Positions 12,154 through 49,181 of a stretch of 50,180 bases of DNA are shown one piece after another. Within the stretch, counting starts at the first letter, position 1, and each line of letters opens with the position of its first letter. The position numbers and the translations under genes are program-made. The DNA comes from Bacteroidales bacterium (GTDB lineage Bacteria; Bacteroidota; Bacteroidia; Bacteroidales; UBA7960): assembly GCA_007129255.1 (NCBI GenBank), contig SKVW01000073.1, forward strand, positions 1 through 50,180, written 5' to 3'. The notes beneath the pieces were generated by a model. That model did no database searches, was not told where the DNA came from, and saw only the letters and a list, made by a program, of their open reading frames with translations.

Positions 12154-12199
12154 ACAAGTAGGAAAAGCAACTCCGGGAAGTGATGAAATCATCCCCTTG

Positions 12200-29250: not shown

Positions 29251-31239
29251 TTAAACCATATCCCTGGGTATGCTCTCGTCGAATGAGCGGCTGAATACCC
29301 TTACATCTCCCTCATAAGCGTCAAGGGTGGCCCGGATCACAAAATGGGTCGTGGTGGAGGTAAGGATGGTACGGGTGATGGTTTTGATCTTCCATCCCTC
29401 TCTGCGAAATTCACGAACCCCTTTTACCTGACCTCTTACCGTTTCATACTTGTTGTTGCAATAGGAATACCTTTCGGTGGCGTCTTTTCTTATTTCTAAA
29501 TTTATATGTTTGAGGTGATACTGAGGATCGTTGTTTACGATTTTCTGGGTCACTTCATTAGTGGCCAGGTTTCGCTCCACGATCCATTCCCGGTGGGGTG
29601 GCACCAGCAGGGTAGTTTCCAGTTCGTCCAGGGGACCGGGTTTTTCCAAAGCCTTTTGGGAAGTATCCCTTTTGGCAATATTTCTTTTTGGCAATACCAG
29701 GGAGCTTTCATCCGGGTAAAGGGTTAATGTAGCGGATTCGGGAGCCGGCCAGGCAAGGGGCCAATAAGAAGTGGAAATGGATACCCTGATCTGGTTTCCG
29801 GCCGGGAAACGCTGGGCGATATAATTCATGGGTACGGTAACTTCATATGTTTTTCCGGGTTCCAGTTCCTGGGGCTCCTCGTTGCTTTCACGATGGGTGA
29901 GATTAAGCAATCCAAAGGTTACCCGGGTTGCCCTTCCGTCGGGCCCTATATCGGAAATACGGGCAGCAACCTGGGCCACGCGCTTGTCGGATTTTAACTT
30001 CAGTTTCAGGTAAGGCATTCCCAGAATCTCATAATCCTCTTCCAATACCGGGCTGTCGAATACCAGGGCACCGCCGTCTTCCTCTCTTTGGTCGCTGGGC
30101 AGGTCGGTCGATTCTGAATAAGAACACCATTTCCCCCCAAACAGCCCTACATTCAAAGGGCTTTTTATTTTAAGGGAGCCCGGTTCTTTTGACGGATTAA
30201 CGTATGATCCTACCTTAAGCGAATTAAGCTTGTATTCTCTTTCCTCAATTTTGGGAGAGGGCCAGTTTTTTTCGTCGATCCACCTGCCCGGTCGATCGGA
30301 TGAAAGGGGTGAGACCGAATCCAGAACAAAGGTGCGCAGCATGGGCTCGTCCTTAACGCCATTATCAATTCCTTTGAGCCACTGATCCCACCACCGTACC
30401 GATTTTTTTAAGAAGTCGATGGCCGGACCCGGTCCGCCCATATGGGGGTATTTATGTCCGTAGGCACCAACAATGCCTTTTCTGGGTACTTTCAGATTTT
30501 CCAGCAGCCGGAATACCGTATTGGAGTACCCGTCTGCCCAACCGCTTACGGCCATTACCGGACATTTAATGGCGTCATAGTCTTCACATACAGAACCATG
30601 TTTCCAATAGTCATCGCGGCGCTGGTGCTCCAGCCACTTTTTCAGCCAGAGCCCGCTACCTTCCAGGCGCTCCATCCACATGTCCCTCCACTTTTCTCCC
30701 ACTAATTCCGGATCAGGTGGACAGCTGGTATGGGCAAACATTACCGAAGCCCATGAGAGGTTGTCCGAAAGCAGGCATCCCCCCATGTAATGCACATCAT
30801 CGGCATAACGGTCATCGGTTGAAGCCACGGTAATGACCGCCTTTAATTCAGGCGGCTGCAAGGCTGCGATTTGCAAGCCGTTAAATCCGCCCCATGAAAT
30901 GCCGATCATGCCCACATTGCCATCGCACCAGGGTTGGGAAGCAATCCATTGGATCACTTCCACCCCGTCATTTAACTCCTGCTGCAGGTATTCATCCCGT
31001 AAAATGCCCTCAGAATCTCCGCTTCCGCGCAGGTCTACCCGGATCCCGGCATAACCTTTCCTGGCAAAATATCCGTGCATCTGATGGTCGTTATATGCTT
31101 TCAAATCCCGCTTGCGGTATGGGATGTACTCCAAAATTCCCGGCACCGGGTTCTTTTCTGCATCCTTCGGAAGCCAGATCTTGGCTGCCAGTTTGGTGCC
31201 GTCACTCATCGGAATCCATGTGTTCTCTATTACCTTCAT
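29251..31239 (-). CDS. CocE/NonD family serine hydrolase
   Basis: A 662-residue alpha/beta hydrolase of the CocE/NonD (X-Pro dipeptidyl-peptidase S15-like) family. The N-terminus MKVIENTWIPMSDGTKLAAKIWLP and the oxyanion-region EYIPYRKRD are typical. The nucleophile is in GMIGISWGGFNGLQ. The acid lies in VSGWADGYSNTV and the His in YGHKYPHMGGPGP. The C-terminal third is the jelly-roll domain (GALVFDSPVLEEDYEILG, PAGNQIRVSISTSYWPL). No signal peptide is seen, so it is probably cytosolic. Family members cleave esters, amides or acyl-amino acids. It is the first gene of the operon with two ATP-grasp ligases, so a linked make-and-break chemistry is plausible but unproven. Confidence 0.9.
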   Translation of the reverse strand: MKVIENTWIPMSDGTKLAAKIWLPKDAEKNPVPGILEYIPYRKRDLKAYNDHQMHGYFARKGYAGIRVDLRGSGDSEGILRDEYLQQELNDGVEVIQWIASQPWCDGNVGMIGISWGGFNGLQIAALQPPELKAVITVASTDDRYADDVHYMGGCLLSDNLSWASVMFAHTSCPPDPELVGEKWRDMWMERLEGSGLWLKKWLEHQRRDDYWKHGSVCEDYDAIKCPVMAVSGWADGYSNTVFRLLENLKVPRKGIVGAYGHKYPHMGGPGPAIDFLKKSVRWWDQWLKGIDNGVKDEPMLRTFVLDSVSPLSSDRPGRWIDEKNWPSPKIEEREYKLNSLKVGSYVNPSKEPGSLKIKSPLNVGLFGGKWCSYSESTDLPSDQREEDGGALVFDSPVLEEDYEILGMPYLKLKLKSDKRVAQVAARISDIGPDGRATRVTFGLLNLTHRESNEEPQELEPGKTYEVTVPMNYIAQRFPAGNQIRVSISTSYWPLAWPAPESATLTLYPDESSLVLPKRNIAKRDTSQKALEKPGPLDELETTLLVPPHREWIVERNLATNEVTQKIVNNDPQYHLKHINLEIRKDATERYSYCNNKYETVRGQVKGVREFRREGWKIKTITRTILTSTTTHFVIRATLDAYEGDVRVFSRSFDESIPRDMV

Positions 31240-31878
31240 GCCTTAAACCTGTCTTTTGTAATTTTACAATACAATGTGTTTTTGTTTGGTTCTTTTCCGG
31301 AAACAGAATTGCGTTGTCCGGGATCTTTTGCCTTACAAGGTGCAAAAAAGAAGCCAAATCTGCCGATATTCTTTTGATTACACCATTGGTTCCGGCCCCT
31401 GTGTAAAGGACTGTACCTGTTTAAAACGTGGATGTTATAAAAAAATCAATCACCCTCAGGAAAACTGTAACAGAAGAATGGACAGTTGGTGTTCAGGCGG
31501 TTGGTGTTCATTTGAAGGGACGGGCCAATAATTTGCCCTGTGGACTTTTTGTTGTTGGAGATCAGGAAATTGAAAGTGCGGAAAAGGTATCTGATAACCC
31601 GCGGTAAACCTAGCCAACGGGAAAACACCACAATTGCCCGGCCTGCTTGAAAAAACGGAAAAAGAATTATTAAGAATTCAGCTGGTTTTTCATTGTTTCA
31701 CTATAGCCAGAAAAACTGTAAAACAAAAATCGTTCGTTTATAAATCTGTGGAAGTTTATCAACACTTCCAGTGCATTTTTTCCACTATCGGATTTCTTTA
31801 AAGGATCAATTCTGTTTTCACCTTCGTTTATTCTGCCTGTTACAATTGCGGGCATAGGTTAGCGCACTCAGTAAGTGC
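31240..31878. other. Long intergenic region, no convincing gene
   Basis: About 640 bp between the divergent hydrolase and ferredoxin genes. Only short frames occur. One (31274-31531, plus) holds several Cys residues but has no recognisable pattern or good start. The right end has an imperfect hairpin (31861-31879) directly before the sigma54-like motif. Confidence 0.5.
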
Positions 31879-31894
31879 TGGTATGGTAATTGTC
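31879..31894 (+). promoter_or_regulatory. Sigma54-like -24/-12 motif, ferredoxin copy 1
   Basis: TGGTATGGTAATTGTC: GG, ten bases, then GT (consensus GC), with the correct TGG-N8-TTG phase. Copy 2 of the cassette has the matching TGGTATATTAATTGCC. The ATG lies 70 bases downstream. One base off the core consensus, so moderate. Confidence 0.45.
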
Positions 31895-31964
31895 TTCTTT
31901 AAAAACGAGGATTTTGTTCATTTATTTAAAGATTGTTTCATTTTAAAAACCAAAAAAAATTACC

Positions 31965-32162
31965 ATGGCTATAAAAAAAGTTTGGATAGAAGACGATTGT
32001 ACAGCTTGTGAATTATGCGTTGACCTTTGCCCGGAAGTGTTTGAACTTCCCGATGACATTGCAGTGGTAAAGGAAGGGGCAGATTTTGACAAACATGAGG
32101 AGAAGATCAAAGAAGCTGCCGAGGATTGCCCGGTGGAGGTGATAAAGATTGAGGAAGAATAG
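31965..32162 (+). CDS. Single-cluster 4Fe-4S ferredoxin (cassette copy 1)
   Basis: A 65-residue ferredoxin of the monocluster type known from Pyrococcus and Thermotoga. Likely cluster ligands are Cys12, Cys15, Cys18 (CTACELC) and Cys55 (DCPVE); Cys22 in LCPEVF is the extra conserved cysteine. The sequence is very acidic and ends in EEE. It is 50 of 65 residues identical to the second copy at 39018. It is the first gene of the ferredoxin-DUF2267-Hsp20 cassette, but a terminator-like hairpin separates it from DUF2267, so it can be expressed at a higher level. The electron partner is unknown. Confidence 0.93.
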   Translation: MAIKKVWIEDDCTACELCVDLCPEVFELPDDIAVVKEGADFDKHEEKIKEAAEDCPVEVIKIEEE

Positions 32163-32221
32163 GGGCGGATAATATTTTGGGCAATGAATTACCGTTGCCC
32201 TTTATCTGTATTAATATAAAT

Positions 32222-32288
32222 AACCCGGCTTAAAAAGAAAACTGGTTCATTGTTCATTTATTTTTCCAGTTTTTCAACCGGGTTTTTT
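32222..32288 (+). terminator. Long imperfect hairpin terminator after ferredoxin copy 1
   Basis: AACCCGG near 32222 pairs with CCGGGTT near 32277-32283, and AAACTGG pairs with CCAGTTT inside it. The stem is followed by T6. It lies between the ferredoxin and DUF2267 genes. Confidence 0.65.
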
Positions 32289-32414
32289 GCATGGAAGGTT
32301 TTCACTAAGTAATTGAAAAGCAAAACGAAAAATTTTTTCCCGAAAGCAAAGGTTGGTAAAAACCCAGTTTGGTTTTTGGGATTGGTTGTTGAATTTTAAG
32401 AAAACAAAAACTAT

Positions 32415-32422
32415 AAAGGAGG
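32415..32422 (+). promoter_or_regulatory. Strong Shine-Dalgarno of the DUF2267 gene, copy 1
   Basis: AAAGGAGG lies 8 bases before the ATG at 32431 and decides that start over the ATG at 32353. The paralogous gene at 39323 has no such site. Confidence 0.75.
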
Positions 32423-32430
32423 AAAGAGTT

Positions 32431-32880
32431 ATGGCTATTAATTTTGAAAAATTTGCACAGGAAGGAAATGAATTTTTAAGCAGGCTGGCAACAAGCCTGG
32501 GCCATCCTGAAGAAAAGGGACGCACAGGGATTATAATGCGGTCTGTAATGCATACTCTTCGGGAAAGGATCACCATGGGCGAATCCCTGAATCTGTTAGC
32601 GCAGTTGCCAATGTTTTTGAAAGGTATTTACGTGGACAACTGGAAATACCAGGAAAAACCTGCAAACATTAAGAAAAAGGAAGAGTTTTTGGATGCCGTA
32701 AAAAATCATCAGGCCCAGTATGGAGAACAGGATTTCGATTGGGAAAAATCCACTGAAGACATTGTAAAAATTGTTTTAAGAGAACTGAGTACCTATGTTT
32801 CCCGGGGTGAATTTGAAGACATCATGGCCCAGATGCCTCAGCCCATAAAAGAGTTGATCCATGAAAGCCTGGAAATTTAG
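32431..32880 (+). CDS. DUF2267 family protein (cassette copy 1)
   Basis: A 149-residue helical protein of the DUF2267 family. The conserved block GRTGIIMRSVMHTLRERITMGESLNLLAQLPMFLKG is recognisable, as is the C-terminal repeat-like segment IVLRELSTYVSRGEFEDIMAQMP; the two halves echo each other, as if the fold is duplicated. Members of this family are commonly found beside Hsp20, BON and universal stress genes, but no biochemical function is known. It is 107 of 149 residues identical (by eye) to copy 2 at 39323. It has a perfect Shine-Dalgarno and lies 68 bases before Hsp20 copy 1. Confidence 0.9.
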   Translation: MAINFEKFAQEGNEFLSRLATSLGHPEEKGRTGIIMRSVMHTLRERITMGESLNLLAQLPMFLKGIYVDNWKYQEKPANIKKKEEFLDAVKNHQAQYGEQDFDWEKSTEDIVKIVLRELSTYVSRGEFEDIMAQMPQPIKELIHESLEI

Positions 32881-32948
32881 ACCATTTCTCCAGGCAATTC
32901 AAAACATAAAAAATAGACTTTAGTAAAAACCAGCAAAAAAGCATGATT

Positions 32949-33395
32949 ATGGCACTTATCAGAAAACGAAAAGCAAATGTACCCTCCACCATGGAGCGCT
33001 TATTAGAAGGAAACATCGGTGATTTTTTCGGTACCCCTGCTTCACCCATGGACTCGACAATTCCTGCTGTAAACGTTAAGGAAGAGGAAGACGAATTTGA
33101 GATACAGGTCGCTGCCCCCGGCATGGAAAAGGAAGATTTTAACATCAGCCTGGACGGTAACTTGCTGACGGTATCCTCCGAGCGCGAAGAAAAGGAGGAA
33201 GAAGAAGCTAAGGAAGGCGGCTATTCCCGTCGTGAATTCAGCTATCAATCATTTTACAGGACTTTTTCTCTTCCGGAAAATACCATCGATAGTGAAAAGA
33301 TCCTGGCCAAATACAAGGATGGAATTCTGCGCATCAAGCTCCCGAAGCTGGAGCATGCCAAAAAACGGCCAATCAGGAAAATCGACATTTCCTGA
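32949..33395 (+). CDS. Hsp20/alpha-crystallin small heat-shock protein (cassette copy 1)
   Basis: A 148-residue small chaperone that holds unfolding proteins. The alpha-crystallin domain spans about residues 38-135, starting with TIPAVNVKEEEDEFEIQVAA and containing PGMEKEDFNISLDGNLLTV. The conserved motif GILRIKLPKLE lies near the end. The N-terminus is short. A Glu/Lys-rich loop (EEKEEEEAKEG) sits in the beta5-beta7 region. The ATG at 32949 is chosen (MALIRKRK matches the start of copy 2: MALIKRDK); an ATG two codons earlier is possible. A strong terminator follows. Confidence 0.93.
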   Translation: MALIRKRKANVPSTMERLLEGNIGDFFGTPASPMDSTIPAVNVKEEEDEFEIQVAAPGMEKEDFNISLDGNLLTVSSEREEKEEEEAKEGGYSRREFSYQSFYRTFSLPENTIDSEKILAKYKDGILRIKLPKLEHAKKRPIRKIDIS

Positions 33396-33459
33396 GGGGT
33401 TATTGATCAATCCCAGGCAGGCGCAGCAATCCGTTTGGGTAATTCCCCAGGATAGCCTG

Positions 33460-33501
33460 AAAAAAGCAGCCTTCCCTAAAAAAAGGGGAGGCTGCTTTTT
33501 T
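33460..33501 (+). terminator. Rho-independent terminator after Hsp20 copy 1
   Basis: AAAAAAGCAGCCTTCCCT pairs with the GGGGAGGCTGCTTTTTT side across an A-rich loop, giving a stem of more than ten pairs ending in T6. Confidence 0.88.
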
Positions 33502-34099
33502 AAAGAAAGGCCTAGGTATGGGCTTTTCGGAGCCTGATCAGAAAAACGGAACAAAAACAAAGTGGTTGACAAGGAATTCATAGTAAAAAATTCCTATTCA
33601 ATTTATAAAGCATTAAAAACTAATACTATTACTTAAAAAACTTCTTTTTTTCTGCTTTATTCCGCGTTGTATATTTATTGTAGAATTAAATACTCATCTT
33701 GTTGTTTTTACACCATAAAATTTAAAAGTGCATATGCGCATTAGTATCTAATATTGTTATTTTTTTGTGAAAATTGAGATTGAATTAATTTGTTGAAAAT
33801 TAAAGTTTTGCGGGTATTAACTTATTTTTTAATAAATTATAATGACTTTATTTTAGTGCTGATATTTAGGAGATTAAACAATATCGGATTTGTTCTTCAG
33901 ACTCTTGCAGATTCTAAGATTTTCAACTATCAGTTTCATCTGGCATAATTTTCCTTATTGATTCCAACAAAATTCCAGTTGGTTTTAAATTTCCTTGTAT
34001 TCATTTTTAACTGGTGATTTCTTTTATGTAATACTTTAATTTTTAATTGGTTTCTACAAAACAGCACCCTTATTTTCATTTAATTAAAAAAAATATCTT
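33502..34099. other. AT-rich intergenic island
   Basis: About 600 bp clearly richer in A and T than the flanks, without a recognised gene or RNA. It precedes the orphan gene at 34100 and ends the first stress cassette. The composition hints at acquired DNA or a long regulatory region; nothing specific could be identified. Confidence 0.5.
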
Positions 34100-34600
34100 A
34101 TGCAGCAGGCAAGCAAGTTAACAGCAGAACAAAAACATGAAATCCAGGAAAATCTGGAAAAAATCTATGCTCGTGAGTTTACAGCACATTTTAAAGCCAA
34201 TTTACCTGTTTTGGAAAACAGCCTGAATCAAACCACTTCCCGACTTTATCAGATTTTTCAGGAAATGTTTAAAGAATTAAGGGTAGAGCATGTGGATGAT
34301 GACTGGATGTGGAATGATAACAAAGCTAAGGCATTTTATGAAGTCGTAAGTAATCTTTTCAAGGAAGGTGATTACCAAAAGGCTTTTGAATTGACCATTA
34401 AGTTCCATTTATATCATTTCAATCTGCGCCTTTTTGAAAGGCAGTACAATCTCTTGAAAGAGCTTATAGAAGGAGCTCATTCCATAAAAGATGAAATTGA
34501 TGAAATGCAAACGGTAAGTCATTTGAATAAAATACTCGACAGTTACGGGATGGATATCAACGGAAGGAAAAACCACTGGTTTTATTGTAATAAAGAATAA
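34100..34600 (+). CDS. Helical protein of unknown function
   Basis: A 166-residue acidic protein that I do not recognise. It appears all-helical: ASKLTAEQKHEIQENLEKIYAREF, LENSLNQTTSRLYQIFQEMF, an aromatic centre VDDDWMWNDNKAKAFYEVV, KAFELTIKFHLYHFNLRLFERQYNLLKELI, and a C-terminal helix. There is no signal peptide and no membrane helix. The gene is AT-rich like the island in front of it and unlike its neighbours, which suggests transfer or a lineage-specific gene. It converges on the first BON-domain gene with a shared terminator. Confidence 0.75.
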   Translation: MQQASKLTAEQKHEIQENLEKIYAREFTAHFKANLPVLENSLNQTTSRLYQIFQEMFKELRVEHVDDDWMWNDNKAKAFYEVVSNLFKEGDYQKAFELTIKFHLYHFNLRLFERQYNLLKELIEGAHSIKDEIDEMQTVSHLNKILDSYGMDINGRKNHWFYCNKE

Positions 34601-34612
34601 GGATATTTAATT

Positions 34613-34657
34613 AAAAAAAGAAGCTGCTTTTAAATCAAAAAGCAGCTTCTTTTTTTT
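34613..34657. terminator. Bidirectional rho-independent terminator
   Basis: AAAAAAAGAAGCTGCTTTT (34613-34631) and AAAAGCAGCTTCTTTTTTT form a near-perfect stem with a five-base loop. It serves the convergent genes at 34100 and 34688. Confidence 0.92.
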
Positions 34658-34687
34658 AACCGGTAAAATGCTTAATGAAATCGCGGA

Positions 34688-35356
34688 CTATACGCCAATA
34701 GAGATATCATCAACAATATCAATAACCCCCGAGGTATAAAATGCAATATCCAGTGCTTCCTTTTTCATAACAAAAAAAGGAACTTCCCCTGTTAAACGCA
34801 CAACACCATCTTTTACGCTGACCTCAATAGCATTTTCATCAACCAGGGCACTTCGCTGGTAAGCTTTTTTAATGTCGTTCTCGATATCAATATCTATTGA
34901 AGTTTTTCGGGGCATCACCAATAATTTGTTGATTACACCAACCACACCCTGGGTGGAGGTTGCGATATCTTCTGCCAGGATCTTTTCCCAATAGCTTTCA
35001 ACCTCGCCGGAAAGAGTAACAAATCCCTCATCAGTTTCCACAATAATTTTGCTGGCGTTAATCTGATTGTTCCATAGCAGCCTGACCTCCACATTGCTTT
35101 TGATTTCTTCGTCAGTGGGTAAGGTGAATTCGGGAGGAAATACTACTTCAAGCATGTTCTCCACACTGGTGATTCCGCCTACCAGGTATGCCTCTTCCTC
35201 AGCAGCTTTTTTGGCGGCATAGGCCGGCACACTTCCTTCAAGCATCACCGTGTTTCCTTTTACGGTGACAGTTACGTCATTTGCATTTACACTGTCATTC
35301 CAGGCAAGCTGGTCAACAATTTCCTGTTTTTTAATTTCTTCTGAAGTTGGGTTCAT
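34688..35356 (-). CDS. Triple BON-domain protein (copy 1)
   Basis: A 222-residue protein made of three BON domains (about residues 6-72, 80-146 and 155-221), each with the pattern of an N-terminal helix and a Gly-bearing strand: VTVTVKGNTVMLEGSVP, IIVETDEGFVTLSGEVES, IEVSVKDGVVRLTGEVP. BON domains usually bind membranes or protect against osmotic shock (as in OsmY), but this protein has no signal peptide, so it is probably cytosolic. The ATG at 35356 is chosen because the paralogue at 46610 starts at the same place. The first 105 residues are about 60-65% identical to that paralogue. It is divergent from pcm. Confidence 0.88.
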   Translation of the reverse strand: MNPTSEEIKKQEIVDQLAWNDSVNANDVTVTVKGNTVMLEGSVPAYAAKKAAEEEAYLVGGITSVENMLEVVFPPEFTLPTDEEIKSNVEVRLLWNNQINASKIIVETDEGFVTLSGEVESYWEKILAEDIATSTQGVVGVINKLLVMPRKTSIDIDIENDIKKAYQRSALVDENAIEVSVKDGVVRLTGEVPFFVMKKEALDIAFYTSGVIDIVDDISIGV

Positions 35357-35408
35357 GACAATTTGGTTTTTCAGGTGTAACAATTTTTTATTTATACTGA
35401 AAGTTTTG

Positions 35409-35424
35409 CCAAAGTTTATTCCAT
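35409..35424 (-). promoter_or_regulatory. Conserved upstream motif of BON gene copy 1
   Basis: TGGAATAAACTTTGGC on the minus strand, 52 bases before the ATG. The second BON gene has TGGAATAAAACTTGAA at nearly the same distance (47 bases). GG-N10-GG keeps sigma54 spacing but not the GC of the -12 element. It may simply be conserved by descent. Confidence 0.35.
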
Positions 35425-35539
35425 AATTGAGAGAAAGGGTGCATTTGCTTTAATACCGCGATAAAAACCCTAAAACCTTAATTGTGTTTCAACTACGGGA
35501 ATGGTTTTTGCCTTTATATCTGCAAAACTTTTTAAAACT

Positions 35540-36166
35540 ATGGATGCCAAAGAAAAAATGATCAAGCACCACCTGAAAGGACGTGATATTTATGATGGAC
35601 GGGTTTTACGTGCCATGCGCGCCGTCGAGCGGGAGTTGTTTGTACCGGATGACATGGTGCATGTTGCTTATGACGATACCGCCTTGCCCATCGGACGGGG
35701 ACAAACCATCAGTCAACCTTATATTGTTGCTTTCATGGCCCAGGCCCTTCAGCTTAAACCCGATGATAAGGTGCTTGAAGTTGGCAGTGGTTGCGGATAC
35801 AATGCCGCTGTTTTGTCACAGCTTGTTAACCATGTGTACAGTGTGGAGATCATTGAATGGCTGGCCGAAAAGGCAAGGAAAAACCTTATGAAGGCAGGGG
35901 TGTATAATGTTACGGTAAAGCATGGCGATGGATATAAAGGGTGGCCCGAAAAAGCCCCTTTTGATAAAATTATGCTGACAGCAGCCGCCGGTGAGGTCCC
36001 CTCCGGTTTAAAAGATCAACTGAAAACAGGAGGAAAGATTCTTGCCCCTGTCGGTAAAACCCTGCAAGTACTGAAGTTAATGGAAAAACTAGGAGAGGAT
36101 GATTTCGAAGAAACCGAATTGATCCATGTTCGTTTTGTCCCGATGACCGGAGAAACAGAAAAATAA
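35540..36166 (+). CDS. pcm: Protein-L-isoaspartate O-methyltransferase
   Basis: A 208-residue SAM enzyme that methylates isoaspartyl residues in aged proteins and starts their repair. Family marks in order: RVLRAMRAVERELFVP, AYDDTALPIGRGQTISQPYIVAFM (substrate loop), the SAM motif VLEVGSGCGYNAAVLSQL, VYSVEIIEWLAEKAR, HGDGYKGWPEKAPFDKIMLTAAA, and GGKILAPVG. The ATG at 35540 (MDAKEKMIKHHLKGR) fits the family start; the longer frame from 35501 does not. It is followed by an unknown helical protein gene and an erythromycin-esterase-family gene, a repair/stress setting. Confidence 0.95.
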   Translation: MDAKEKMIKHHLKGRDIYDGRVLRAMRAVERELFVPDDMVHVAYDDTALPIGRGQTISQPYIVAFMAQALQLKPDDKVLEVGSGCGYNAAVLSQLVNHVYSVEIIEWLAEKARKNLMKAGVYNVTVKHGDGYKGWPEKAPFDKIMLTAAAGEVPSGLKDQLKTGGKILAPVGKTLQVLKLMEKLGEDDFEETELIHVRFVPMTGETEK

Positions 36167-36298
36167 AACCTCTTTTTTACTGTGGAGATTTATCCCCGTT
36201 CGTTGAAAAACTTCCCATCTGTTATGACCATCGATCATTGTAAACAGGAAAACTTTTGATCGGAAAAGTAGTTCTAAAAAAATTCAAATCCCTAACCC

Positions 36299-37456
36299 AT
36301 GAGCAGTAAAGCAAAGCATCATAACCAAATTGCCAGGCAGTTGCTTGATGATTTTTTGAATCGTACCGGTATAACAGGACAGGGGGGTAATCCCGGGCGA
36401 AGATATCTTTGGACGGATGCATTTGCCGTGCACTGCTGTTTTGCCCTTGCCCGTTCAGAAAAAGATGAAAACTATCTGCAACACGGTTTGCATTTAATCG
36501 ATGCGGTACATAACACATTGGGGAAGCACCGGACTGATGATTCCAGAACCGGATGGATTAGCGGGTTGCCCGAAGAAGAAGGGGAAAAACACCCGACAAC
36601 CGGCGGGCTCAGAATAGGTAAGAAATTGCCGGAGAAAGCCGCAGGAACTTATCTGAACCCATACAAGGAAATGGAATGCGACGGGCAGTACTTTCATTAT
36701 CTGACCCGTTGGTTTAGCGCCCTTACCGGTGCTTACCATCAAACCGGCGAAGAAAAATATGCCTTCTGGGCTGCGGAATTGATTAAGGTTACCGAAAAAT
36801 TCGTTAATAAAGAAGGGGAGACGGTTCGCTTATTCTGGAAAATGAAAACAGACCTGTCGGAACCTTCGGTAAAAAGTATGGGAATGCATGACCCCCTGGA
36901 AGGATTGATATGCACCCTTAGCATAAAAGAGTTTGCAAAAAAGAAAGAAATTTCCCTGGAAGAACTGGAGGAAGATTTACAAAAAATCTGCAAGGACATG
37001 TCCTGGTTTACAACGGACGCCCTGGGCATTGGCGGGCTGCTCTTAAACACGGTTAAAGCTGGAATGATGGCGCAGAACGGGCAAACGCTCCCGAAGAACA
37101 TTCAGCCCGGCAAATTGCTGGCCGACAGCATGGCCGGCTTACAGGCCTATCTTGGGAATTCTCCCGGACCCTTGCATCCTGCCGAAACCAGGTTGCCCTT
37201 TCGCGAATGCGGCCTTTCCCTGGGAATTCGCACCATTACAGGTATGCAAAACGACCTGGATTTGCCCGACCTGGATATCCGGCCTCTGGAGAACTTTTCC
37301 GGACTGGCCGAAGACCTCGAAAATTTTTGGCTGGTTTCTCAGCACCGCCAAGCGCAAACCTGGAAAAATCACCGCGATATCAATGCCGTTTCTCTTGCTG
37401 CAAGTTTGCTGGCCCAAAAACAACCCCGGGCTTTTTGCCCAAAAACCATTAAGTGA
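36299..37456 (+). CDS. Unrecognised helical protein, possibly alpha/alpha-barrel fold
   Basis: A 385-residue soluble protein. I do not recognise the family. The pattern of paired helices with aromatic and acidic loop residues (RRYLWTDAFAVHCCFALAR, YFHYLTRWFSALTGAYHQTGEEKYAFWAAELIK, MGMHDPLEGLICTLSIKEFA, WFTTDALGIGGLLLN, RPLENFSGLAEDLENFWLVSQHRQAQTW) suggests an alpha/alpha toroid like that of glycosidase or terpenoid-cyclase folds. Possible active-site residues are Asp and His in WTDAFAVH and MHDPLEG. It is 132 bp after pcm in the same direction and ends 4 bp from the convergent erythromycin-esterase-family gene. Function is open. Confidence 0.8.
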   Translation: MSSKAKHHNQIARQLLDDFLNRTGITGQGGNPGRRYLWTDAFAVHCCFALARSEKDENYLQHGLHLIDAVHNTLGKHRTDDSRTGWISGLPEEEGEKHPTTGGLRIGKKLPEKAAGTYLNPYKEMECDGQYFHYLTRWFSALTGAYHQTGEEKYAFWAAELIKVTEKFVNKEGETVRLFWKMKTDLSEPSVKSMGMHDPLEGLICTLSIKEFAKKKEISLEELEEDLQKICKDMSWFTTDALGIGGLLLNTVKAGMMAQNGQTLPKNIQPGKLLADSMAGLQAYLGNSPGPLHPAETRLPFRECGLSLGIRTITGMQNDLDLPDLDIRPLENFSGLAEDLENFWLVSQHRQAQTWKNHRDINAVSLAASLLAQKQPRAFCPKTIK

Positions 37457-37460
37457 TCGT

Positions 37461-38786
37461 CTAAATTCCCCATGGATAGGTTTCCGGGATAAGCCGGGGA
37501 TCTTCTTCTGTTTTTATCGGGTGTAAAGCCTCTGTCTCATCAAGGTAAATGAAAGCATCATACCGTACAGGAATCAGGCTTGGTACATAGTTTCCAAAAT
37601 GATCCCTTTCCGGATGGTAAATGACCCCAATGGCCCGGTGATCCATCTGTTGCGCCATCAGGGAATGATCTTCCACGTCACGGGTTATGATCAGTTTATC
37701 AATTGGTCCGGATTGATGAAGAAGGAACTCCCAACTGTTTTTCCGGGCTTCCGGCACCTCCATTTTTTCCATGGGTGCATCCCAGGCCTGCCCGGCTATT
37801 ACACTGCCCTTATAGGAACCAAAGCCAACGGCTACGGTATGGTCTGTTCCCCATTTTTCCCGCACAAGCTGTCCCACGTTAACCATCCCGCCTGCTTTCA
37901 TATTGGTGGCACGGGCATCCCCAATGTGGGTGTTGTGTTCCCAGATCACCGCTTTGGAGTCCGGGCCATGAAAATCAAGCAGCCTTTCCAGGGTAGCGGT
38001 CATGTGCTCATCGCGTATGTTCCATGATTGGGGTCCTCCTTTTACCATGGCACGGTAATACCTTTCGGCATTTACGGCCGTCATGGCATTTTGTTCGGCA
38101 TTAAAGGGTGCTTCATGATCATTGTTGTATAGGGGAACCCTGTTGCGGATCTTTTCCAGTAAATCCAGCACTTCCCTTTCGCAACTTTCAGGAGTAAACC
38201 GGGTTGAGGTGGCGTATTGGGTCGCTTCCCTGTTGTAGGGCTCAAAACAGGCCAGGGCTTCTTCCGCAGACCTCAGCGCATCGGGATCGTTTTCCTTTAA
38301 ATATTCCCTGATGGCCTCAAGCGACTCCCACAAGCTATAAACATCCAGGCCATAAAAGCCTGCCTGATGGATAAAATCATTGTTTTGATTGTAGTCCTTT
38401 AACCACTCCATCAATGCGGCAACTTCCCAGTTTGCCCACATCCAGGAAGGCCATCTGTGGAACTTTCGCAACACTTGCTGGGCATTTATTCCACTATCAT
38501 TGTAATTCCTGATATAACGGTTTATTTGATAACAATCCGGCCAGTCGCCCTCTACCCCAATGATGTTAAAACCCTTCTCCTGGATTAGTTTCTTTGTTAT
38601 GTGTGCCCGCCACACATAATATTCGTGGGTGCCATGGGAGGCCTCTCCAAGCATGACAATCTTTGCATCGCCAATTCGGTCAAAAAGGGGGTCCAGCCCT
38701 TTTTGCAGCAAATGCGACTTTTCATTGATCAATTCCGTAAGACTTTCTTTAGAAGGATCACTTGGTTTTCCGGTTAAAAGGCTCAT
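37461..38786 (-). CDS. Erythromycin esterase family protein
   Basis: A 441-residue protein of the EreA/EreB-like superfamily. Key segments are MLGEASHGTHEYYVWRAHITKKLI (catalytic His and Glu), VEGDWPDCYQINRYI, HRWPSWMWANWEVAALMEWL, FYGLDVYSLWES, and WEHNTHIGDARAT with the second conserved His. Most chromosomal members are not macrolide resistance enzymes; they are linked with pcm (fusions of the two families are known), and the true substrate is uncertain. Here pcm is close by, which supports a role in that repair context. No signal peptide is present. It converges with the helical protein gene. Confidence 0.9.
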   Translation of the reverse strand: MSLLTGKPSDPSKESLTELINEKSHLLQKGLDPLFDRIGDAKIVMLGEASHGTHEYYVWRAHITKKLIQEKGFNIIGVEGDWPDCYQINRYIRNYNDSGINAQQVLRKFHRWPSWMWANWEVAALMEWLKDYNQNNDFIHQAGFYGLDVYSLWESLEAIREYLKENDPDALRSAEEALACFEPYNREATQYATSTRFTPESCEREVLDLLEKIRNRVPLYNNDHEAPFNAEQNAMTAVNAERYYRAMVKGGPQSWNIRDEHMTATLERLLDFHGPDSKAVIWEHNTHIGDARATNMKAGGMVNVGQLVREKWGTDHTVAVGFGSYKGSVIAGQAWDAPMEKMEVPEARKNSWEFLLHQSGPIDKLIITRDVEDHSLMAQQMDHRAIGVIYHPERDHFGNYVPSLIPVRYDAFIYLDETEALHPIKTEEDPRLIPETYPWGI

Positions 38787-38920
38787 GATTTCTTTTTTCT
38801 TTTTTTAATAACAAATCCATGCCATGATGTCCGGATTATCTGTAGAAATCGAACGGTTTGGGCTTTATTTCTTCTCAAAGGAACAACTGAAGCGGACAAA
38901 AAAATTAACCCTTTCTTTTG

Positions 38921-38936
38921 TGGTATATTAATTGCC
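38921..38936 (+). promoter_or_regulatory. Sigma54-like -24/-12 promoter, ferredoxin copy 2
   Basis: TGGTATATTAATTGCC has GG, ten bases, then GC, and TTGC in the -12 position, a good fit to TGGCAC-N5-TTGCW. Copy 1 of the cassette carries the same motif with two changes in the spacer and one in the -12 box. The ATG lies 81 bases downstream. Confidence 0.55.
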
Positions 38937-39017
38937 TGTTTTAATCCTGAAAAGGAGTTTTATATTATGAAAATAGCCTGTCAGGATATAATATAATCAC
39001 CCTAAAAGAATGAAGTT

Positions 39018-39215
39018 ATGGCGATAAAAAAAGTAAGGATTACCGAAGACTGCACTGCATGTGAATTGTGTGTTGAACTTTGCCCGGAAGTTTTCAGCCT
39101 TCCGGATGAGATAGCGGTTGTAAATGAAGATGTAAACCTCGATATGTACGAGGAAAAAATTAAAGAAGCCGCCGAAGAATGTCCTGTTGAAGCCATTAAA
39201 ATTGAAGAGGAATAA
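39018..39215 (+). CDS. Single-cluster 4Fe-4S ferredoxin (cassette copy 2)
   Basis: A 65-residue monocluster ferredoxin, with cluster ligands Cys12, Cys15, Cys18 and Cys55 and an extra Cys22, all in the same positions as copy 1 at 31965. The 15 differing residues are mostly conservative (Asp/Glu) and sit outside the cysteine motif, so both copies should be functional. It starts the second ferredoxin-DUF2267-Hsp20 cassette. The best sigma54-like motif of the window lies upstream, and a perfect hairpin lies between this gene and DUF2267. Confidence 0.93.
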   Translation: MAIKKVRITEDCTACELCVELCPEVFSLPDEIAVVNEDVNLDMYEEKIKEAAEECPVEAIKIEEE

Positions 39216-39237
39216 AAGGAATAAAAACAGATCCTGG

Positions 39238-39267
39238 CAGATCATTTTATAACCGGAAAATGATCTG
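39238..39267 (+). terminator. Perfect hairpin between ferredoxin and DUF2267, copy 2
   Basis: CAGATCATTTT and AAAATGATCTG (11 bp) around an 8-base loop. No direct T-run follows, so it may be an mRNA processing or stabilising element rather than a full terminator. The first cassette has a hairpin in the same place. Confidence 0.55.
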
Positions 39268-39322
39268 TTCATTCTGTTTAATGATTTTTTTAATAACCAT
39301 TAACCAAAAAGAATAAGATACC

Positions 39323-39772
39323 ATGGCTATCAATTTTGAAAAATTCGCACAAGAAGGAAATGAGTTTTTGAATAACCTGACCAGCGGCCTGGGTCATCCT
39401 GAAGAAGAGGGCCGCACGGGAATCATTTTGAGGGCAGTGATGCATACCCTTCGCGAGAGGATTACCATTAGTGAATCCCTGAACCTGCTTGCCCAGTTGC
39501 CCATGTTTCTCAAAGGAATTTACGTGGATGGATGGAGATACCGGGAAAAACCCCTGGATTTGAAATCTGCTGAAGACTTTACCAATGAAGTGAAAAAGCA
39601 CCAGGCACATTATGGGGAGCGGCAGTTTGAATGGGAAAAATCAACCGAAGAGATCGTTAAGATCGTTCTGAATCACTTAGGTAAATACATTTCTGATGGA
39701 GAGTTTGAGGATATCATAGCCCAGATGCCCAAACCCCTCAAAGGGTTGATCCGCGAAAGCAGGGATTTATAG
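39323..39772 (+). CDS. DUF2267 family protein (cassette copy 2)
   Basis: A 149-residue DUF2267 protein, the same length as copy 1 and about 72% identical. The core (GRTGIILRAVMHTLRERI, ESLNLLAQLPMFLKGIYVDGW) is nearly unchanged; differences gather in residues 75-100 and the C-terminus, which may define the partner surface. The start at 39323 aligns with copy 1. Unlike copy 1 it has no Shine-Dalgarno, so translation control differs. Hsp20 copy 2 follows after 160 bases, longer than in copy 1, with its own small hairpin. Confidence 0.9.
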   Translation: MAINFEKFAQEGNEFLNNLTSGLGHPEEEGRTGIILRAVMHTLRERITISESLNLLAQLPMFLKGIYVDGWRYREKPLDLKSAEDFTNEVKKHQAHYGERQFEWEKSTEEIVKIVLNHLGKYISDGEFEDIIAQMPKPLKGLIRESRDL

Positions 39773-39844
39773 AGTTTTCCTGTTCGTAAAAAGCGGGTGT
39801 TTTTTGTTTTTTAACCCAGACTCCAGGGGTTGGAATGTCAAGCT

Positions 39845-39868
39845 CCTTCAGATAACTTTCTCTGAAGG
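39845..39868 (+). other. Small hairpin between DUF2267 and Hsp20, copy 2
   Basis: CCTTCAGA, an 8-base loop, TCTGAAGG, upstream of the Hsp20 gene. No T-run follows. It may be a leader structure of the Hsp20 mRNA. Confidence 0.45.
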
Positions 39869-39932
39869 GTTATTCTTTGACTCAAACCAACGGTAAAATG
39901 AATCTGTTTGCAGGATAAAAAAAGAAAATATT

Positions 39933-40373
39933 ATGGCACTAATCAAAAGAGACAAACCGGCATTTATTTCCACACTGGAAAGGTTAATGGGAGAAGACCT
40001 GATGGACCGGCTTCAAAGCGGATTTTCATCGACTCAGACTACCATTCCTGCAGTCAATGTAAGAGAAGAAGAGGATGAATTTGAGATCCAGGTTGCTGCG
40101 CCAGGCATGGAAAAGGAGGATTTTAACATTGATCTGGACGGCAACCTGCTGACGATTAGCTCGGAACGCGAGGATGAAGTAAAAGAAGGAGAAGGAGAAT
40201 TCAGTCGCAGGGAGTTCAGCTATCAGTCTTTTAGCAGAACCTTTACCCTGCCCGAAAACACCATCGACAGTGAAAAAATAAAAGTCAAATACAAAGAGGG
40301 TATATTACGCATTAAATTGCCCAAACTGGAGCATGTCAAAGGACGGGGCAGCCGGAAAATTGAGATTTTCTGA
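39933..40373 (+). CDS. Hsp20/alpha-crystallin small heat-shock protein (cassette copy 2)
   Basis: A 146-residue small heat-shock protein. The alpha-crystallin domain spans about residues 35-133, with TIPAVNVREEEDEFEIQVAA, PGMEKEDFNIDLDGNLLTI and the GILRIKLPKLE motif. It closely matches copy 1 (32949), including SRREFSYQSF and LPENTIDSEKI. The acidic loop is shorter (DEVKEGEGE). Two paralogues could form mixed oligomers or respond to different stresses. A terminator at 40483 separates it from the aldehyde dehydrogenase gene. Confidence 0.93.
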   Translation: MALIKRDKPAFISTLERLMGEDLMDRLQSGFSSTQTTIPAVNVREEEDEFEIQVAAPGMEKEDFNIDLDGNLLTISSEREDEVKEGEGEFSRREFSYQSFSRTFTLPENTIDSEKIKVKYKEGILRIKLPKLEHVKGRGSRKIEIF

Positions 40374-40482
40374 AAGCCGTTCTGCTGATAAACAGAATTT
40401 TTTTGAAGTAATAAAAGTTTATTCTCTTCAAAGGGCAAAAAAAAGAGAAGGAAAGGAGAACTGCAGACAAAAAGAAGCCGTC

Positions 40483-40524
40483 AGGTTCCCCCTTTTTGGC
40501 TTCATAAGGCGAACCTCTTTTTTT
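40483..40524 (+). terminator. Rho-independent terminator after Hsp20 copy 2
   Basis: AGGTTC pairs with GAACCT and inner CCTT with AAGG, followed by CTTTTTTT. It ends the second cassette about 110 bases after the Hsp20 stop. Confidence 0.7.
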
Positions 40525-40620
40525 GAACAAGGGCTTGTGCAGCAGACATTTTATCCTGCCTTTCTGATAAATCGTAAAAAAGGTCAAAGCTCATTTAATA
40601 TAATTTTAAAACCATTTGCT

Positions 40621-41988
40621 ATGTTACAATCCATAAACCCCAATACCAAAGAAGTGATTGGCAGTTTTCAGCATGCCAGTCTGGAGGAAGTTGATAACAG
40701 TCTTTTTCTGGCACAACAAGGTTTTTCCAACTGGCGTCTGAAAACTTTTGATGAGCGGAGCCATTTTTTAAAAAAGCTGGCTGCTTTGCTGCGGGAAAAC
40801 AAAAGAACCTGTGCAGAGATCATCAGCCGGGAAATGGGAAAAGTAATCAGGGAATCCATCAAGGAAGTAGAAAAGTCTGCCATGGTGGTAGATTTTTTTG
40901 CCGAACATGGTGCACGTTATTTAAAGGAGGAAAAAATCAAATTAGATGAGGGGGAAGGACTTATTAAATATGAACCCCTGGGGGTTGTTTTGGGGGTTAT
41001 GCCCTGGAATTTTCCTTTCTGGCAGGTTTTTCGCTTTGCCGCTCCTACTCTGATGGCAGGAAATGCCATTGTTTTGAAACATTCCTCTCAAGTACCGGCA
41101 TGCTGTGAAAAAATTGAAGAGATGTTTGAAAGGGCCGGTTTCCCTGGAGGGGTATTCCAGAAACTAATCATTCCTTCTGCCATGGTTGAAAACATCATCA
41201 AAGATTTTCGTGTGCAGGCGGTGAGCTTTACCGGAAGCCTGGAAGCGGGCAGCAAAGTAGGCCGTTTTGCAGGCGAAGAGATCAAAAAATCTGTTTTGGA
41301 GCTCGGCGGCAGCGACCCTTTTATCGTACTGGAAGATGCAGACATAAAAACGGCAGCCAAAGCTGGTGTAAGTTCCCGGATGAAAAATTTCGGGCAAAGC
41401 TGTGATGCCGCCAAACGATTTATTTTGCACGAAAGCATTGCAGAGGATTTTCTGGATGCCATGATCGAAGAATTGGAATTGCAGCGGTTTGGTGATCCCC
41501 TGGATGAAAAAAGTGACTTTGCCGGCCTGTCCAGCCAGAAACAGAAAGACCTGTTGCAAAAACAAGTAAAAATTTCCCTTGAAATGGGAGCAGAAGTGGG
41601 ATGGGAGGCAGAAAAAGCCCCGGATAATGACACCTTTTTCAAGCCTTTGATTTTGAAAGGCATTACCCCCGACATGCCCGCATACAAAGAAGAGTTGTTT
41701 GGTCCGGTATTTTCCGTTTTCATTGTTTCCGATGGGTTAGAGGCAATACGAATAGCCAATAATACCGAATTCGGACTGGGCGCATCCATTTGGACGGAAG
41801 ACCTGGTAAGGGGTTGGAAGCTTTTACGTGAGGTCCAGGCAGGGATCGTTTCCATTAACAATCAGGTTAAGTCCAGACCTGAACTTCCTTTTGGAGGCAT
41901 TAAAAAGTCAGGAACGGGTCGTGAATTGTCCGGAGAAGGATGCCGGGAATTTACCAACCGCAAATCTGTTTGGTATTCAATAGAATAG
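40621..41988 (+). CDS. NAD(P)-dependent aldehyde dehydrogenase, succinate-semialdehyde type
   Basis: A 455-residue aldehyde dehydrogenase nearest to short succinate-semialdehyde dehydrogenases (GabD/YneI type). The catalytic set is Asn130 (MPWNFPF), Glu228 (LELGGSDPF) and Cys261 (FGQSCDAAKRF). NAD-binding parts are KHSSQVPA and SFTGSLEAG. The C-terminal motif is ELPFGGIKKSGTGRELSGEG. The ATG at 40621 (MLQSINPNTKEVIG) is the family start; a longer frame from 40333 overlaps Hsp20 and a terminator. It may clear reactive aldehydes formed under stress, matching its neighbours, but a catabolic role is as likely. Confidence 0.92.
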   Translation: MLQSINPNTKEVIGSFQHASLEEVDNSLFLAQQGFSNWRLKTFDERSHFLKKLAALLRENKRTCAEIISREMGKVIRESIKEVEKSAMVVDFFAEHGARYLKEEKIKLDEGEGLIKYEPLGVVLGVMPWNFPFWQVFRFAAPTLMAGNAIVLKHSSQVPACCEKIEEMFERAGFPGGVFQKLIIPSAMVENIIKDFRVQAVSFTGSLEAGSKVGRFAGEEIKKSVLELGGSDPFIVLEDADIKTAAKAGVSSRMKNFGQSCDAAKRFILHESIAEDFLDAMIEELELQRFGDPLDEKSDFAGLSSQKQKDLLQKQVKISLEMGAEVGWEAEKAPDNDTFFKPLILKGITPDMPAYKEELFGPVFSVFIVSDGLEAIRIANNTEFGLGASIWTEDLVRGWKLLREVQAGIVSINNQVKSRPELPFGGIKKSGTGRELSGEGCREFTNRKSVWYSIE

Positions 41989-43312: not shown

Positions 43313-45555
<2,243 letters not shown>

Positions 45556-46609: not shown

Positions 46610-47275
46610 CTATCCGATGGTCACCTCATCAACCACATCTACCACCCCGGAGGTATTGTTTGCGATATCCAGTATTTCTTTTTTCATGGCGTAAAAAGGA
46701 ACGATGCCGCTTAAATGCACATGTCCGTCATTTACGCTTACCTGTATTGCCTTTTCATCCACCAGGGCGCTCCGGATATAAGCGCTTTTAATGTCATTTT
46801 CTATGTCAATGTCCATGGTGGCTTTTCTTGGTTTTACCTTTAGCTCGTTGTTAACACTGATAACCCCTGTGGCAGATCCGGCAATATTTTCTGCAAGCCT
46901 TTTTTCCCAGTAGCTGTCCACTTCGCCCGTAAGGGTAATCAACCCGTTTTCTGACCGGACCTTAATGTTGGCGGCGTTGAGCTGGCTGTTCCACAATAAC
47001 TTGGCTTCCAGGTTGCTTTCTATTTCCGGATCATTGGGTAAAATGGTTTCCGGTGGGTGCTCCACTTCCAACCGATTTTCTACCAAAGATACTCCCGCTA
47101 TCAGGTAAGTATCTTCTTCGGCGGCTTTTTTTGCAGCAAAGCTTGGAACTGTTCCCTCCAGGATAACGGTATTTCCCTGGACGGTTACATTTATTTCGTT
47201 GGCATTTACACTGTCGTTCCATGCAAGTTGATCAATGATTTCCTGCTTCTTTATTTCTGCTGATGTGGGAGTCAT
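46610..47275 (-). CDS. Triple BON-domain protein (copy 2)
   Basis: A 221-residue protein of three BON domains (about residues 6-72, 80-146 and 155-220), with VTVQGNTVILEGTVP, VRSENGLITLTGEVDS and VSVNDGHVHLSGIVP as the three strand motifs. It is homologous along its whole length to copy 1 (34688) and keeps the same start, MTPTSAEIKKQEIIDQLAWNDS. There is no signal peptide, unlike OsmY. The duplicated BON genes parallel the duplicated ferredoxin-DUF2267-Hsp20 cassettes, which suggests that one stress set was copied. It lies upstream of fpg in the same direction. Confidence 0.88.
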   Translation of the reverse strand: MTPTSAEIKKQEIIDQLAWNDSVNANEINVTVQGNTVILEGTVPSFAAKKAAEEDTYLIAGVSLVENRLEVEHPPETILPNDPEIESNLEAKLLWNSQLNAANIKVRSENGLITLTGEVDSYWEKRLAENIAGSATGVISVNNELKVKPRKATMDIDIENDIKSAYIRSALVDEKAIQVSVNDGHVHLSGIVPFYAMKKEILDIANNTSGVVDVVDEVTIG

Positions 47276-48320: not shown

Positions 48321-49181
48321 TTAGTAGAACAATACAGGTTTATCAAAGGTTTCCACCATTTGCCTGGCCAACTCCCCTGAGAATAAATAATCTCCTGTTA
48401 CGGATTTTTTGTCGGAGGGCAGAATAACCAGGTCGGGATTATTTTTGCGGACATGATCCAGTAAAATGCCGACCTGGTCATCTCCTTTCATCACCCCGGT
48501 ATTATAATCCAGGCCGGAACCCGAGTAAGACTTGATATCTTCCATCCATTCATAAGTATTTTGTTCGATATCGGCCTGGTTTTCGTCCTGTATTAAACTA
48601 CAGGTAAAGATCAGGGTGTTGAAAGGATCCAGCCATTCAAACAAATATTTGGCATTCGGGCTTTTGCCTTTTTCCAGGTCACTTACGAGAACGGCATTTT
48701 CGGGTTTGACAAATTCATGACCCGGTGGCACTACCAGGGTAAGCAATCCTGCGTTCCTTGCCATCTCAAGTAGCTCATCCAATCCCCTAACCATGTGGCT
48801 TCCCGGGATGGTGCCGGAAACCAGCAGGGAATTGGGATCTTCTTTCTGGGCCTCTTTTAGTGCCGGCTCCATTTCTTTTATCTCTATTTCCGTGTTTACC
48901 CGCAGGGGGTAGTTCAGCCGGGATACTTCCCTGCTAAGTATCTTTTTAAAATCATTGTCTGCCATCTCTTTCTCTCTTTTCATCACTTCTTCATGGGATA
49001 ATTTTTCCCCGGGAGTTGTGGTCTGTGAGTCGGAATATGAACTGTATGGGCCATGCATGGCTTTGGGGTCAATCAAATGGAATATATCCGTTTTGGTTTC
49101 CGTGTGCTTTCCGAAGTTTAACCCATACCGGATGATGCTTTCTGTTTCTTCCCTGATATTGCTGATGATAATGGTTTTCAT
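48321..49181 (-). CDS. Two-domain universal stress protein
   Basis: A 286-residue protein made of two UspA-like domains (about residues 1-145 and 150-286). The first starts MKTIIISNIREETESIIRYGLNFGKHT and ends with LLTLVVPPG. The second starts with ENAVLVSDLEKG and ends with ARQMVETFDKPVLFY, close to the usual Usp C-terminus, with DLVILPSDKKSVTGDYLFSGELARQM in the nucleotide-binding region. The classic G-2x-G-9x-G(S/T) loop is not clear, so ATP binding is uncertain. The ATG at 49181 is chosen because the Usp fold begins there; a start six codons earlier is possible. Repeat copy 3 abuts this start. Confidence 0.85.
   Translation of the reverse strand: MKTIIISNIREETESIIRYGLNFGKHTETKTDIFHLIDPKAMHGPYSSYSDSQTTTPGEKLSHEEVMKREKEMADNDFKKILSREVSRLNYPLRVNTEIEIKEMEPALKEAQKEDPNSLLVSGTIPGSHMVRGLDELLEMARNAGLLTLVVPPGHEFVKPENAVLVSDLEKGKSPNAKYLFEWLDPFNTLIFTCSLIQDENQADIEQNTYEWMEDIKSYSGSGLDYNTGVMKGDDQVGILLDHVRKNNPDLVILPSDKKSVTGDYLFSGELARQMVETFDKPVLFY

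Follow-up and report, generated by a model that had tools for sequence, protein, structure and literature searches.

A twice-present ferredoxin–DUF2267–Hsp20 gene block in a putative stress-survival island of a Bacteroidales bacterium

Do a ferredoxin, a DUF2267 protein and a small heat-shock protein whose genes stand side by side twice in one genome work together as a unit? The question is raised by a stretch of 50,180 nucleotides from a Bacteroidales bacterium (GenBank assembly GCA_007129255.1, contig SKVW01000073.1), here called the window as a whole, in which the three genes form two blocks, Fd1–D1–H1 and Fd2–D2–H2. A preliminary description made from the sequence had proposed that the three genes function as a unit, perhaps with coupling of redox state to a chaperone. 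The analysis reported here points in another direction: the window probably holds part of a general stress-survival island, within which a segment was duplicated long ago and both copies were kept, and the encoded proteins would act in parallel under shared regulation.

Two retained copies of the ferredoxin–DUF2267–Hsp20 block

The six open reading frames (ORFs) were recovered on one strand and in one order in both blocks (Table 1), as had been described. The ferredoxins were assigned to the Pfam family Fer4_13 (E 3.3e-12 for Fd1 and 2.6e-12 for Fd2; 47.3 and 47.7 bits at a cut-off of 24.5), D1 and D2 to DUF2267 (PF10025; E 4.9e-24 and 1.5e-22; 85.3 and 80.6 bits at a gathering score of 29.8), and H1 and H2 to HSP20 (PF00011; E 7.4e-25 and 2.8e-23; 87.5 and 82.4 bits at a cut-off of 20.8), so the alpha-crystallin domain noted earlier in both copies scores above the cut-off in each. 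Global alignment reproduced the identities that had been counted by eye, with 50 of 65 aligned residues for the ferredoxins and exactly 107 of 149 for the DUF2267 proteins, and gave 101/146 for the Hsp20 pair; the score of every pair was far above those of 200 shuffles. Elsewhere in the window, two BON-domain proteins are paralogs as well (146/221 aligned residues identical), and once this pair is counted in, the duplicated set comprises at least four families. In the genome of the window (3.14 Mb, 247 contigs), both of the two DUF2267 matches and both ferredoxins of this type are located inside these blocks, while one of three Hsp20 genes is located away from them on contig C27.

Table 1. Coordinates of the genes and sequence elements in and around the two blocks.
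Feature	Position	Strand	Basis and remarks
46-bp stretch, 84.8% identical to esterase gene part 38453-38498	31744..31789	.	upstream of Fd1
Fd1, single-cluster ferredoxin, 65 aa (predicted)	31965..32162	+	C12-x2-C15-x2-C18 ... C55-P, extra C22; nearest solved chain D. gigas ferredoxin II (1f2g)
Terminator-like hairpin just 3' of Fd1	32179..32200	+	hairpin scan
D1, DUF2267 protein, 149 aa, without cysteine	32431..32880	+	Pfam, alignment
H1, Hsp20/alpha-crystallin, 150 aa, without cysteine	32943..33395	+	Pfam, alignment
Orphan ORF, 166 aa	34100..34600	+	no Pfam/NCBIfam match; homolog in sister species (L009) 91.6% identical
BON1, three BON domains	34688..35383	-	OsmY-like but below NCBIfam cut-off; paralog of BON2
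PCMT, protein-L-isoaspartate O-methyltransferase	35501..36166	+	Pfam
Orphan protein, 385 aa	36299..37456	+	no Pfam/NCBIfam match; 90.9% identical in sister species
Erythromycin-esterase-like protein	37461..38786	-	divergent from Fd2
Fd2, single-cluster ferredoxin, 65 aa (predicted)	39018..39215	+	ORF, Pfam, cysteine pattern
Terminator-like hairpin, 13 pairs, between Fd2 and D2	39236..39269	+	hairpin scan
D2, DUF2267 protein, 149 aa, without cysteine	39323..39772	+	Pfam; model pLDDT 87.4
H2, Hsp20/alpha-crystallin, 146 aa, without cysteine	39933..40373	+	Pfam, alignment
Aldehyde dehydrogenase (ALDH)	40618..41988	+	top NCBIfam match succinate-semialdehyde dehydrogenase, below cut-off
BON2, three BON domains	46610..47275	-	paralog of BON1; directly downstream of DUF2267–Hsp20 in sister species (L141)

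Each of the two copies is represented in the sister species G001 (loci L009, L019 = L140, L141). L140 contains Fd1 and the N-terminal 48 residues of D1, L009 contains Fd2 and D2, and L141 contains the end of a DUF2267 gene followed by a copy-2-like Hsp20 and BON2. Therefore, the duplication is older than the split of the two species. The synonymous divergence (dS) between D1 and D2 is 1.88, and that between the other copies was saturated and not computable. In the comparison of the window with the sister species, the ratio of nonsynonymous to synonymous divergence (dN/dS) was 0.06-0.07 for Fd2, D2 and H2, 0.05 for Fd1 and zero for D1, the latter over 48 codons only; the low dS of Fd1 and D1 in this comparison falls in patches of very high identity and is not to be over-read. 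Both copies are old and have been kept under purifying selection.

These patches, which are 96-99% identical to the DNA of the sister species, are located at window positions 31930-32180 and 32430-32574 (against L140), 36779-37029 and 38029-38279 (against L009) and 48842-48981 (against L141), and the DNA around them is mostly 76-94% identical in steps of 250 bp. Some of them are found at contig ends of the sister species and others are not; recent exchange, strong constraint and assembly cross-talk are alternative explanations.

Linkage of the three families in related genomes

Gene neighbourhoods were compared at ten close DUF2267 loci outside the window, namely L009 and L019 of the sister species and L010, L011, L012, L013, L014, L015, L016 and L143. 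This set was obtained from 12 initial loci by exclusion of the three most distant ones (L017, L018, L020) and addition of L143, the fragment L141 being uncounted. Several of the relatives are incomplete metagenome-assembled genomes (MAGs) on short contigs, and several loci are cut by contig ends, which in the case of L143 and the G001 loci run through the DUF2267 gene itself; upstream, L143 is cut by the contig end and L011 ends after 391 bases.

Within this set, a ferredoxin gene was adjacent to DUF2267 or one gene off at six of the ten loci (L009, L019, L010, L012, L013, L015), corresponding to 4/8 outside the genus, and a gene of the PEBP (YbhB/YbcL) family followed DUF2267 directly at six loci (L010, L011, L012, L013, L015, L143), all among the eight outside the genus. 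Hsp20 was found near DUF2267 at a single close locus, L011, and besides in the sister-species fragment L141. The genomes to which L011 and L016 belong yielded no ferredoxin of this type, and L011 thus combines DUF2267 with Hsp20 in a genome where no such ferredoxin turned up. The observed gene orders were Fd–DUF2267–PEBP (L012, L015), DUF2267–PEBP–Fd–ALDH (L010, L013), DUF2267–PEBP–Hsp20–BON, DUF2267–PEBP–BON and, without DUF2267, Fd–PEBP (L134, L139). The surroundings of the second copy in the window are largely matched by L012, with the order PCMT–esterase–Fd–DUF2267–PEBP–aPGAM–ligA–Fpg–DUF72, which is shuffled in L010, L013, L011, L015 and L143. L012 shares with the window all of these genes except PEBP, which stands there in place of Hsp20 and ALDH, and it has neither the 385-aa gene nor BON where these stand in the window. 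PEBP is present in the genome of the window and in the sister species, but at another site. Among the loci read, the complete trio is confined to the window's genus, the sister species spreading it over two contigs, and no locus read outside this genus holds all three genes.

Presence and absence were counted in 48 genomes, of which 47, that of the window among them, belong to the family and one, G085, to another family. DUF2267 was found in 6, ferredoxin in 11 (excluding one weak match in G017, E 5.6e-4, within a 294-aa frame), PEBP in 9 and Hsp20 in 44 of them. Ferredoxin was present in 6/6 genomes with DUF2267 versus 5/42 others (Fisher p 3.8e-5; within-genus permutation p 0.007) and PEBP in 6/6 versus 3/42 (Fisher p 6.8e-6; within-genus permutation p 0.004), in a data set limited by incomplete genomes and with only two informative genera (g3, g5). 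The presence of Hsp20 was independent of DUF2267 in the same genomes (p 0.58). With respect to the linkage and co-occurrence expected from the preliminary description, the association of ferredoxin with DUF2267 stands, both as a recurring neighbourhood and statistically, but Hsp20 is not a fixed member, and the view of the three genes as one working unit is not upheld.

These data bear on two readings which overlap with that of a stress island. According to the first, ferredoxin and DUF2267, with PEBP, genuinely work together, as a pair or trio that transfers electrons or acts as a sensor and happens to be located inside the stress island, and Hsp20 is a bystander. Both partners occur in every DUF2267 genome of the set, with the low within-genus permutation p values given above, and their adjacency survives changes of order (L012 and L015; L010 and L013; L134 and L139). 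However, the ferredoxin occurs without DUF2267 in the five genomes mentioned, stands on a contig other than that of DUF2267 in G085 and G030, was not found in the genomes of L011 and L016, and did not appear in the stretches around DUF2267 from other Bacteroidota (see below). This reading is retained as a minor possibility. According to the second, which we consider unlikely, the stress island is mobile and passes between these Bacteroidales, and its genes travel together without working together. The patchy distribution of DUF2267, found in 6/98 genomes (own included) from three genera and a second family, would fit such hitchhiking, and so would a Fd2 clade that spans genera; against it, the window contains no tRNA, no integrase or transposase match was found among the 32 window proteins that were scanned with Pfam (not every ORF), and PEBP and ferredoxin occupy separate places in some DUF2267 genomes.

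The proteins themselves were analysed with regard to a possible redox link. Fd1 and Fd2 are predicted single-cluster ferredoxins with ligand cysteines at positions 12, 15, 18 and 55 in the pattern C-x2-C-x2-C ... C-P and with an acidic isoelectric point of 4.1; all five cysteines occupy identical positions in both copies, in agreement with the earlier remark that they are intact. The length class and the cysteine pattern are shared with Desulfovibrio gigas ferredoxin II (1F2G), from which the window proteins differ by the extra Cys22, kept in 4/5 aligned rows, and by their surroundings of stress genes. D1, D2, H1 and H2 are all devoid of cysteine. In an alignment of 36 DUF2267 sequences, 19 are likewise free of it and no column holds more than 4 cysteines. 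Because D1, D2, H1 and H2 lack cysteines, the suggested coupling of redox state to the chaperone is unlikely to run via thiols, and thiol-based coupling was rejected as the leading idea.

The structure of D2 was modelled from 36 sequences as an all-helical protein with a predicted local distance difference test (pLDDT) score of 87.4, an earlier model from 6 sequences having been poor (51.7). Over 141 residues, the model resembles the solved DUF2267 member TTHA1432 of Thermus thermophilus (PDB 2YSK; Z 18.9, TM score 0.81, root-mean-square deviation 2.3, 31% identity); beyond 2YSK the fold comparison gave weak matches only (Z 2.7 and below), which were treated as noise. An internal repeat, residues 25-72 against 101-149, beat all 2000 shuffles in both copies. 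As for the function of DUF2267, a full-text literature search, in which one paper mentions the family in passing and one names 2YSK, gave none, consistent with what had been stated before.

Terminator-like hairpins are predicted between the ferredoxin and DUF2267 genes in both blocks, and also between D2 and H2, with none between D1 and H1; in total, 17 such sites were counted in the region 31239-40700 compared to 11.6 (sd 3.5) in shuffled sequences, a modest excess. The hairpins behind both ferredoxin genes would speak against a single transcript, without settling the matter. A dedicated unit, in which DUF2267 would relay the redox state of the ferredoxin to the Hsp20 chaperone and so control it, could draw on the common gene order of both copies, the conserved ferredoxin cysteines and purifying selection, but it is very improbable in view of the trio's confinement, among the loci read, to one genus, the PEBP that relatives carry instead of Hsp20, the independent distribution of Hsp20, the hairpins between ferredoxin and DUF2267, and the lack of cysteines.

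DUF2267 in other Bacteroidota, on plasmids and in comparison with known systems

A DUF2267 match was obtained in 36 of 395 Bacteroidota genomes, own included. From the 35 other genomes, G157, G258 and G466 were left out due to matches below the cut-off only, and the remaining 32 provided 36 stretches around DUF2267 (three each from G418 and G300), nine of them shortened by contig ends. As controls, 40 stretches from 25 of these genomes were used, with positions picked by offset and not at random. USP genes were found in 8/36 DUF2267 stretches versus 2/40 controls (p 0.03, uncorrected, for one of 19 families tested). The stretch L050 combines two DUF2267 genes with PolX, a PCMT–esterase fusion and a gene homologous to that of the 385-aa protein. 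At L017 (Cyclobacteriaceae), the gene of a protein with a PDZ-like match that stays below the cut-off stands between those of Hsp20 and DUF2267. In L050, the PCMT and erythromycin-esterase-like domains are fused in one 660-aa protein (217-2199), the window having separate genes close to each other.

Additionally, 10 of 50 plasmid matches were read, all at annotated loci, nine alphaproteobacterial and one actinobacterial. USP was present at 4/10, Hsp20 at 3/10 and a CBS protein at 3/10 of these loci, counts for which there is no control set. The alphaproteobacterial stress islands (Sinorhizobium, Leisingera, Sulfitobacter, Mesorhizobium, Rhizobium) resemble the window in that DUF2267 lies near USP, Hsp20 or CBS genes, in a Sinorhizobium plasmid near BON and FtsH as well. 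They differ from it in gene order and in that no small ferredoxin is annotated beside DUF2267 in the 10 regions, whose gene tables are incomplete; in one region a NapF ferredoxin-type protein is encoded about 6 kb from DUF2267. Overall, DUF2267 recurs in stress neighbourhoods, yet not as part of a fixed trio, and the link with ferredoxin and PEBP distinguishes the window's DUF2267 from the family in the 36 other Bacteroidota stretches.

The DosR hypoxia/dormancy regulon of Mycobacterium sets a precedent for a stress regulon to which ferredoxin and Hsp20 belong in parallel; its gene table lists fdxA (Rv2007c) and acr/hspX (Rv2031c) as induced (PMC4082495). The likeness is an analogy of content and would not imply membership: the window genes are clustered and belong to another phylum, and a scan of the window that allowed up to 3 mismatches to the consensus gave no DosR-type site.

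Several results count against the reading of the window as a stress island with an anciently duplicated segment. Ferredoxin of this type was found in 0/36 DUF2267 stretches of other Bacteroidota and 0/40 controls (p 1), the difference for Hsp20 was not significant (3/36 versus 0/40, p 0.10), BON, esterase, PCMT and PolX each occurred in 1/36 and PEBP in 0/36, and the enrichment of USP would fall after correction for the 19 families. No regulator or shared promoter motif was found. The Bacteroidota -7 promoter motif is TAnnTTTG; it was absent within 250 nt upstream of 12 genes, which says little as 0.07 occurrences are expected per stretch.

The gene trees belong to the same account. H1, H2 and the Hsp20 of the sister species form one clade (support 98/93) in a tree whose rows are the fetched loci and not every listed Hsp20 copy. 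In an 8-row tree of BON proteins, the four from the genus fall together with support 86/92. Fd2, however, groups at 99/98 with the ferredoxins of G030 and G035, members of other genera in which these genes stand on contigs other than that of DUF2267, and a single clade of the four ferredoxins of the genus was rejected (p-AU 0.036, approximately unbiased test, made after the tree had been seen). The tree of DUF2267 leaves the duplication undecided, with p-AU 0.37 for a single clade of the rows from the genus. The simple view that the entire block was duplicated at genus level, backed by the Hsp20 and BON trees and not by that of the ferredoxins, was therefore rejected as a description of the data; one clean duplication event is not proved by these sequences, and given the conflict in the ferredoxin tree, the block may combine parts of unequal age or parts that were transferred laterally.

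Surroundings of the blocks and the proposed stress-survival island

Some of the genes around the blocks recur with them. A homolog of the 385-aa protein lies beside the PCMT–esterase fusion and DUF2267 in L050, which is from a genome of another class, and ALDH adjoins a ferredoxin gene, or lies one gene off, also in L010, L013 and L132. The 46-bp stretch upstream of Fd1 scored 52.7 bits against the esterase gene, the best of the other 63 control stretches reaching 31.9. It is possibly the relic of a duplicated esterase gene, into which the duplicated segment would once have extended; being short and partly palindromic, it is suggestive only and was not used as proof.

Further repeated or stress-related elements were noted in the window. 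Upstream of the blocks, two tandem ATP-grasp paralogs (26552-27850 and 27922-29220; 244/430 aligned residues identical) are also tandem in the sister species (L140), and they need not stem from the event that duplicated the cassette. OsmC-like, SpoIIAA-like and baeRF release-factor-like genes are located at 11598-12562 and 12703-13860, and homologs of one or another of them share a stretch with ferredoxin or DUF2267 in L132, L136, L142, L143 and L013. An interspersed repeat of about 200 bp is present at 9081-9285, 45324-45488 and 49175-49375, in each case on the minus strand and ending at a gene start. Its purine-rich and pyrimidine-rich arms make up an imperfect inverted repeat, and it matches the genome at 24 places, in some cases with fragments of one copy. 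At 13 of 14 distinct places with a right end, the exception being located on contig C102, an ATG opening a long frame stands at a fixed position of the repeat, and the genes that follow are unrelated. A search with the right half gave matches in 8/59 genomes, 13 of them in G000, 7 in G001 and short ones of 23-41 bases only in six further genomes. The repeat is possibly a mobile leader or promoter element. A search of the window with Rfam, this repeat included, gave nothing at gathering scores.

The top named matches were mostly from Bacteroidales MAGs labelled CSSed or T3Sed. These labels are taken to denote soda-lake sediment samples, so the nearest named relatives probably live in soda-lake sediment, and the habitat of the window organism may be soda lake-like as well.

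Under the stress-island reading, the duplicated segment would consist of the ferredoxin–DUF2267–Hsp20 genes together with the BON gene and perhaps an esterase copy that has since been lost. We infer that these genes would be switched on by a common stress regulator and act in parallel, in such a way that Hsp20 would hold unfolding proteins, the BON proteins would protect the envelope, PCMT would repair isoaspartate and the ferredoxin would supply a low-potential electron carrier; the two diverged copies may provide more product or differ in their induction. The evolutionarily linked core would be ferredoxin and DUF2267, joined by PEBP in the relatives, and Hsp20 would be a genus-level addition.

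A more specific proposal is that ferredoxin, DUF2267 and the PEBP-family protein constitute an undescribed stress module, in which the helical, two-repeat DUF2267 protein directly docks the single-cluster ferredoxin and Hsp20 took over the position of PEBP as third gene within the genus. We regard it as quite unlikely, but if true, it would give the DUF2267 family its first link to a function. Hsp20, the most eye-catching member of the block, turns out to be the least informative one, which corrects the first reading of this locus, and the reproducible association with ferredoxin and PEBP offers two concrete partners as the best lead for DUF2267.

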